A stretch of DNA of 64,000 nt from Meiothermus sp. (GTDB lineage: Bacteria > Deinococcota > Deinococci > Deinococcales > Thermaceae), in NCBI RefSeq assembly GCF_026004075.1, contig NZ_BPIK01000001.1, positions 908,041 to 972,040 of the forward strand, written 5' to 3'. The position numbers and the translations under genes are program-made. Shown here one piece after another: positions 21,495 to 23,402 of the stretch (positions within the stretch are counted from its first letter, which is position 1; each line of letters opens with the position of its first letter). Under the pieces are notes generated by a model that was not told the origin of the DNA, did no database searches, and saw only the letters and a program-made list of their open reading frames with translations.

Positions 21495-21693
21495 TTGACA
21501 AAACCCGACCCCCTCGGGTTCGGCCTCATCCGATGGGCAGTGGGCGTATCTCGTTGCGCAATTGGCTTTTACCTGCCCCCATTGAGTTTAGCGGTGGTAT
21601 TGCGCCACGTGCCCAGGTGCGCTTTAGACACCTCGCTTAAGTTGTGTCCCCCTGGCAACTGCCACCGCGCCTCCCGGTGGCAGTTGATTTTTT
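21495..21693 (+). ncRNA. Candidate small RNA with its own terminator
   Basis: The stretch has no credible ORF but folds: hairpin AACCCGA/TCGGGTT (21502-21520), a rod with TGGGC/GCCCA (21541-21545, 21611-21615) enclosing GCGCAAT/ATTGCGC (21556-21562, 21599-21605), AGGTG/CACCT, and finally a strong terminator at 21656-21693. A TTGACA at 21495-21500 exists but has no clear -10 partner, so the 5' end is unknown. The family is not recognised. Confidence 0.35.
21656..21693 (+). terminator. Strong Rho-independent terminator with no upstream gene
   Basis: CAACTGCCACC / GGTGGCAGTTG form a perfect 11-bp stem (21656-21666 and 21676-21686) followed by ATTTTTTG. The nearest upstream coding sequence ends almost 400 nt away. 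Confidence 0.85.
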
Positions 21694-21792
21694 GCATATT
21701 TGCCGCTAGAGCTTTGTAGGTACAATGATTAGAAATGCGGGCCAGAATGCTGGTGGAATGGAGTCTTGGGAGCGCTAATAGATATACCTGGA

Positions 21793-21816
21793 GGTCGTGT
21801 CAAGATTTATGTGTAG
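21793..21816. repeat. Left terminal inverted repeat of the IS
   Basis: Begins GGTCGTGT; the transposase stop codon (21800-21802) lies inside it. Matches the right repeat at 21 of 24 positions. Confidence 0.9.
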
Positions 21817-22978
21817 CAGTCTGTGTAGAGGGGAAGTACCGCTCCTTCAGCATCTGTTCTAGCATCTCCTTTGCCTCGGCAAAGCCTCTGAGTGTACGCT
21901 CTGTCCATTTGCCCTCCTGCCTTTCGCTCTCCAGATACAGCACTTTGAACACCGCCTCCGTTGTAGGAAACTTGTGATCCCGTACCTTGGTACTGCGTCT
22001 TATCTCCCGGATAAACCGTTCCATCGGATTGGTGCTCCGAAGGTAGGGCCACAGCACCTTGGGATAGCCATAGAACCGCAGCAGCGCCGCGGAGTCCTCC
22101 CACCAACCGCTCACCAGCCGCGGGTACCTCGACCCCCAGGTTCGCCGCAGCCGCTCCAGGCCTTCCAGGGCTTCCTGTCGGCTTTCCGCCCGGTACACCC
22201 CGCGTAGATGCTCGGCCACCGCCCCCCGATCCCGTGCACGCACCTGTGCCAGGCTGGAGCGCACCATGTGCACCACGCAGCGCTGCCATTCGGCGCCGGG
22301 GTAGACCCTTTGGATGGCCGCCTCCATGCCGGGAAGGCCATCGGTCACGAAGAGCAAGACCCGCCGTAGGCCCCTTTGCCACAAGCCCTTCAACACCTCC
22401 TCCCAGGCCAGAGCGCTCTCTGCGGGCAGGAGCCAGAAGCCCAGCACCTGCCGCTCCCCGCTGGGGGTGATGCCCAGCGCCACATACACCGCCTCTTGCT
22501 GAACCCCCAGGTCGTCCCGCATGACCCTCAGAAACAGACCGTCCAGGTAGACCACGGCCAGTTCCTCCGGCAAAGGCCGCTGGCGGTACTGCTCCGCCGC
22601 CCGCAAGACCTGGTCGGTCAGGCTGCTAAGGGTCTCGTGGGTATAGCGGTGCCCCAGCAACAGGCTCAGCACCTCCGCCGCTTTGCGCTGCGTCACCCCG
22701 GCGGCATACAGGGCCACGGCCACCTCCCCCACGTCCACCAGGCGCCGGGCATAAGGTTCCAGGAAGCTGGGATAGTAGCACCCCTCGCGATCCCTGGGCA
22801 TCTGGAGGTTCACTGAACCAAAGCGGGTCGAAAGCCGCCTGGGGTAGTAGCCGTTTTTGCGTCCTCCGTGTTCCCGCAAGAAGGCCTCCCGGTCGGCGTC
22901 CAGCAGAATCTGCAAGACCTCGGTGGCTGTTTCCCTTACCGCTTCGCGCAAAATCATCTGTAGGGTATCCTGATCCAT
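21800..22978 (-). CDS. IS256-family transposase
   Basis: 392 residues, full length. The DDE residues are Asp146 (VVYLDGLF), Asp213 (FVTDGLPG) and Glu320 (STNPMERF), with WQRCVVHMVR between as in all IS256 (mutator-type) transposases. The gene has its own AGGAGG Shine-Dalgarno sequence just inside the right repeat. No frameshift or internal stop is seen, so it is probably active. Confidence 0.96.
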   Translation of the reverse strand: MDQDTLQMILREAVRETATEVLQILLDADREAFLREHGGRKNGYYPRRLSTRFGSVNLQMPRDREGCYYPSFLEPYARRLVDVGEVAVALYAAGVTQRKAAEVLSLLLGHRYTHETLSSLTDQVLRAAEQYRQRPLPEELAVVYLDGLFLRVMRDDLGVQQEAVYVALGITPSGERQVLGFWLLPAESALAWEEVLKGLWQRGLRRVLLFVTDGLPGMEAAIQRVYPGAEWQRCVVHMVRSSLAQVRARDRGAVAEHLRGVYRAESRQEALEGLERLRRTWGSRYPRLVSGWWEDSAALLRFYGYPKVLWPYLRSTNPMERFIREIRRSTKVRDHKFPTTEAVFKVLYLESERQEGKWTERTLRGFAEAKEMLEQMLKERYFPSTQTATHKS

Positions 22979-23026
22979 GGGGTACCTCCTTGTTGATTGC
23001 GGTACCCCCTCTTTTTACACAAACCC

Positions 23027-23050
23027 CTACACATAATTCCTTACACGACC
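23027..23050. repeat. Right terminal inverted repeat of the IS
   Basis: Ends ACACGACC at 23050, followed directly by the target duplication TACCTGGA. Confidence 0.9.
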
Positions 23051-23402
23051 TACCTGGAACGGGCAATGCCTTGTGCCCAGGGAACCCCCTTGGCAGGCTG
23101 AATGGGGCTTACCACCGGTTAACTACGGCCTAATTCCGGATTGCTATAACCCAGCTGACCAAGGCGCCCTCGATGCAATTTGGGCTAATAGAGAGCCGAT
23201 ACCGGTTGGAACCTGGCTCGAGGGTCAGGTATTGGGTATGGTCTGGCTATGCGATGGGGATCACAAAATAATCCTGGGCGAACCTCAGAATCTCCCAAGC
23301 CTCGATCTCGATGCGCTCTGGCGTTGGTTTCGTGGTCGTCAACCCCGTTTGACGAATGCAGATGAAGCTGAGGCCTTTATTCATTCCTTAGAACTTTCTT
23401 AA

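Follow-up and report, generated by a model that had tools for sequence, protein, structure and literature searches.

The window analysed here, 64,000 nucleotides of the Meiothermus sp. contig NZ_BPIK01000001.1, contains a small pyrophosphatase-like gene that is split by an insertion sequence. The interval 21735–23402 is that of the entire split gene and is larger than the element itself, which occupies 21793–23050 (1258 bp; minus strand, as defined by its transposase) and is a complete, ISTth4-like member of the IS256 family. Its terminal inverted repeats, GGTCGTGTCAAGATTTATGTGTAG on the left (21793–21816, plus strand) and GGTCGTGTAAGGAATTATGTGTAG on the right (23027–23050, minus strand), are identical at 21 of 24 positions, and the element is bordered by a perfect 8-bp target-site duplication, TACCTGGA, at 21785–21792 and 23051–23058. 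It encodes an intact transposase of 392 aa (21800–22978, minus strand), which scores 324.9 bits against the IS256 equivalog model NF033543 (cut-off 150) and matches PF00872 with an E-value of 8.5e-88. The features that define the IS256 family, namely an IS256/Mutator-type transposase, inverted repeats of about 20–30 bp and a target duplication of 8–9 bp, are thus all found in this element.

The closest named element is ISTth4 from Thermus thermophilus, with 73.8% DNA identity over the full 1258 bp and 73% identity between the transposases. Each of the two elements encodes one transposase, on the minus strand and in a matching arrangement, and each has 8-bp direct repeats. In a study of Thermus insertion sequences, ISTth4 was assigned to the IS256 family, with a length of 1200–1500 bp and repeats of 8–9 bp (PMC6352166). 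The difference of about 26% in DNA makes the window element a separate one by usual naming practice, and it is a relative of ISTth4 rather than ISTth4 itself, for which a DNA identity of about 95% or more would be needed. A closer copy was seen neither in 60 related genomes, where the best full-length match is 76%, nor among the plasmid matches listed, where it is 75.5%. The transposase family and the 8-bp duplications are also those of IS256 from Staphylococcus, which interrupts genes and leaves them precisely.

Six copies of the element exist in this genome (3.25 Mb in two contigs), and they are 100% identical over their full length. Each of the six is flanked by a perfect 8-bp duplication and each duplication is different (CAACGTAG, GAGGTGAA, GAGTATGC, AAAACCCA, GAGCTTCT and, in the window, TACCTGGA). 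Chance can be excluded, because the five other identical copies have their own perfect duplications and because the DNA of relatives continues uninterrupted through the site. The six identical copies represent a recent burst of one element, and they imply that this element was probably active recently. As the comparison set has one genome per species, it is the identity of the copies and the lack of decay that suggest a recent insertion within the species. In two of the other copies the joined flanks also form open frames that are apparently interrupted, one of 338 codons (L003, 1501–2758) and one of 82 codons with a helix-turn-helix look (L005, 1501–2758). The original prediction of a recent insertion by an element with an intact IS256-family transposase is supported by these results.

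The split gene lies on the plus strand. Its 5' part (21735–21792) comprises codons 1–19 and the first base of codon 20, includes the left duplication and starts at an ATG shared by the homologues, while its 3' part (23059–23402) runs from the rest of codon 20 to the stop. When the two flanks are joined with one copy of the duplication kept, they form an open frame of 133 codons that is broken in codon 20. All figures of the original prediction hold, including the 21/24 matched ends, the perfect 8-bp duplication, codon 20 and the rejoined frame of 133 codons.

The relatives were searched for the rejoined protein, and uninterrupted versions were found. A clear homologue exists in 15 of 17 congeneric genomes (55–78% identity), and homologues with 43–57% identity exist in other genera of the family. 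Among the 17 congeners, G005 gave no match, and all that G001 gave was a weak match such as a canonical pyrophosphatase would be expected to produce. The homologues in G010 and G016 are frames of 130 codons, and the stops listed for them are simply where these frames naturally end. A shorter homologue of 105 codons, which stops sooner than the other members of the family, was observed in G017 (L066, 4001–4318; the same place as L023). A search of genome contigs with the single rejoined protein returned no match, and a contig search with an alignment of the family matched 12 named loci.

In four congeners (L008–L011), the DNA aligns straight across the insertion point with a single copy of the target. 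The gene order on the left is also common to the window and these loci: in all four, the homologue is preceded by a 96-codon gene, which in three of them follows a fur-like gene, the L008 locus being too short to judge the latter. There is practically no chance that the flanks are unrelated sequences which happen to be in frame, a reading for which nothing speaks beyond the weak Pfam score described below. The homologues found at full length in 15 of the 17 congeners speak against it, and the alignment straight through the junction refutes it. The two halves belong together, as had been proposed. Just upstream of the split gene, at 21656–21686, a strong hairpin that resembles a terminator is followed by a run of six T; three congeners share this hairpin, which separates the split gene from the upstream 96-codon gene.

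Pairwise dN/dS (NG86) between the window gene and its homologues in L008–L011 is 0.08–0.10, an approximate value as synonymous changes are near saturation, and no second lesion was found in the split gene. A dN/dS of about 0.1 and the absence of further damage point to a recent loss, and the gene was thus under selection until recently. From the above, we infer with a probability of about 95% that an autonomous ISTth4-like element of the IS256 family inserted recently in a conserved gene with a pyrophosphatase fold that is not essential, breaking it in codon 20 and duplicating 8 bp of the target. IS256-type insertion uses an 8-bp staggered target, and the ISTth4-like element would have transposed in this standard way. 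The insertion would abolish the gene product, as the predicted translation contains 19 native residues followed by residues encoded by the element (80-codon frame, 21735–21977), and the lineage presumably tolerates this loss, as do relatives that lack the gene.

The original prediction also described the insertion as a knock-out, and this stands insofar as a real, conserved gene is broken. It has to be qualified in two respects, namely that the housekeeping pyrophosphatase is intact elsewhere and that the 3' part retains an open frame of 109 codons from a GTG at 23073. If this part were still expressed, from the GTG or by outward transcription from the end of the element, the protein would be altered and partly functional rather than abolished. 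The positions D53, D58, D85, D87 and K89 are indeed kept in it. However, the first 24 residues are gone, and with them the conserved strand 1 as well as the invariant residues E8 and R16; a simple scan, which is weak evidence, found no sigma-70-like promoter in or near the end of the element. We consider residual function unlikely.

Complete loss of the product by a recent insertion could still be reversed on rare occasions, if the element left precisely by way of the 8-bp repeats and so restored the gene. For IS256 in Staphylococcus, precise excision was reported to need a duplication of about 8 bp and was proposed to occur by slippage, independently of the transposase, as summarised in a later paper (PMC5225508). 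The window site has the 8-bp duplication that such excision needs, as do all six copies, and by analogy its reversal would be plausible. A stronger version of this idea is that the insertion acts as an on/off switch, with a population that mixes interrupted and precisely excised alleles, as was reported for staphylococcal genes that carry IS256. The exact 8-bp duplication and the in-frame rejoining fit such a switch, but any clean IS256-type insertion looks the same, and among six copies that are alike nothing singles out the site in codon 20, which makes the switch very unlikely. The simple recent insertion is routine and the whole case is ordinary transposon biology; it marks an ISTth4-like element that was active not long ago and, in one strain, the natural loss of a gene.

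The pyrophosphatase likeness of the gene, also part of the original prediction, is supported at the level of sequence family and fold. The rejoined frame scores 25.4 bits against PF00719 (cut-off 23.5), a weak match, which is backed by the pyrophosphatase fold in a confident model of homologue L058 from Meiothermus taiwanensis (mean pLDDT 92.6). Compared with solved pyrophosphatases, this model reaches a best E-value of 9.4e-8 and TM-scores up to 0.81, and a profile search hit solved pyrophosphatases with an E-value of 2e-8. By both sequence and fold, the gene belongs with the family I inorganic pyrophosphatases (PF00719).

These enzymes are about 175 residues long, compared with about 130 residues in the short family. 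The short family was aligned to the canonical pyrophosphatase of the window genome, and the aligned positions were read by the roles that their counterparts have in the E. coli enzyme. Positions E20, Y55, D65, D70, D97, D102 and K104 (E. coli numbering) are kept in the short family, while K29 is replaced by R, the E31 position and the R43 region are not conserved, the position of D67 is variable (G in the window gene) and the C-terminal part with Y141 and K142 is missing. The full catalytic set, which includes D67, R43, Y141 and K142, is therefore absent. The short family is predicted to have a pyrophosphatase fold, and we do not claim pyrophosphate hydrolysis because of the variable D67 position and the absent C-terminal residues. 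An intact canonical inorganic pyrophosphatase is encoded on the second contig of the window genome (G000:C2:245098–245565), so the housekeeping enzyme is unaffected by the insertion and the split gene is a different one.

The genomic neighbourhood of the family was summarized from loci L008–L036, L058–L069 and L079–L086. Generally, a family member lies directly behind mgtE (25 of 29 genomes; L008–L036), and the ends of the two genes often touch or overlap. The four exceptions without mgtE ahead (G008, G010, G012 and G016) are the closest relatives of the window genome. In eight further genomes, four members are linked to mgtE, two are unlinked and two are not judgeable owing to a contig end. 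The mgtE gene of the window genome itself is at G000:C1:1861486 and is followed by a different, convergent gene, so the split gene does not lie beside it. In the clade of the window, the family gene has left mgtE.

In five genomes (G001, G005, G020, G023 and G033), mgtE is present but not followed by a family gene, and a clear homologue is lacking in other places too, indicating that the family gene is dispensable in some lineages, with the proviso that drafts are among these genomes. A literature search on MgtE and pyrophosphatase in Thermus found nothing on the family gene by title and abstract. One tentative and rather doubtful idea is that this uncharacterised family of Thermus, Meiothermus and their relatives, which has a pyrophosphatase fold and keeps metal-ligand positions without the full catalytic set, acts together with MgtE. 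It might be a partner that binds or senses Mg2+, and in the clade of the window it would have moved out of the operon with mgtE and be on its way to being lost. The conservation of such a small gene behind mgtE across Thermus, Meiothermus and their relatives may outweigh the insertion itself in importance. Some genomes of Thermus type encode the pyrophosphatase-like domain and an ADP-ribosylglycohydrolase as one in-frame fusion; this was observed at five loci (L025, L026, L032, L033 and L068), and in L068 the ADP-ribosylglycohydrolase domain matches PF03747 with an E-value of 1.5e-75.
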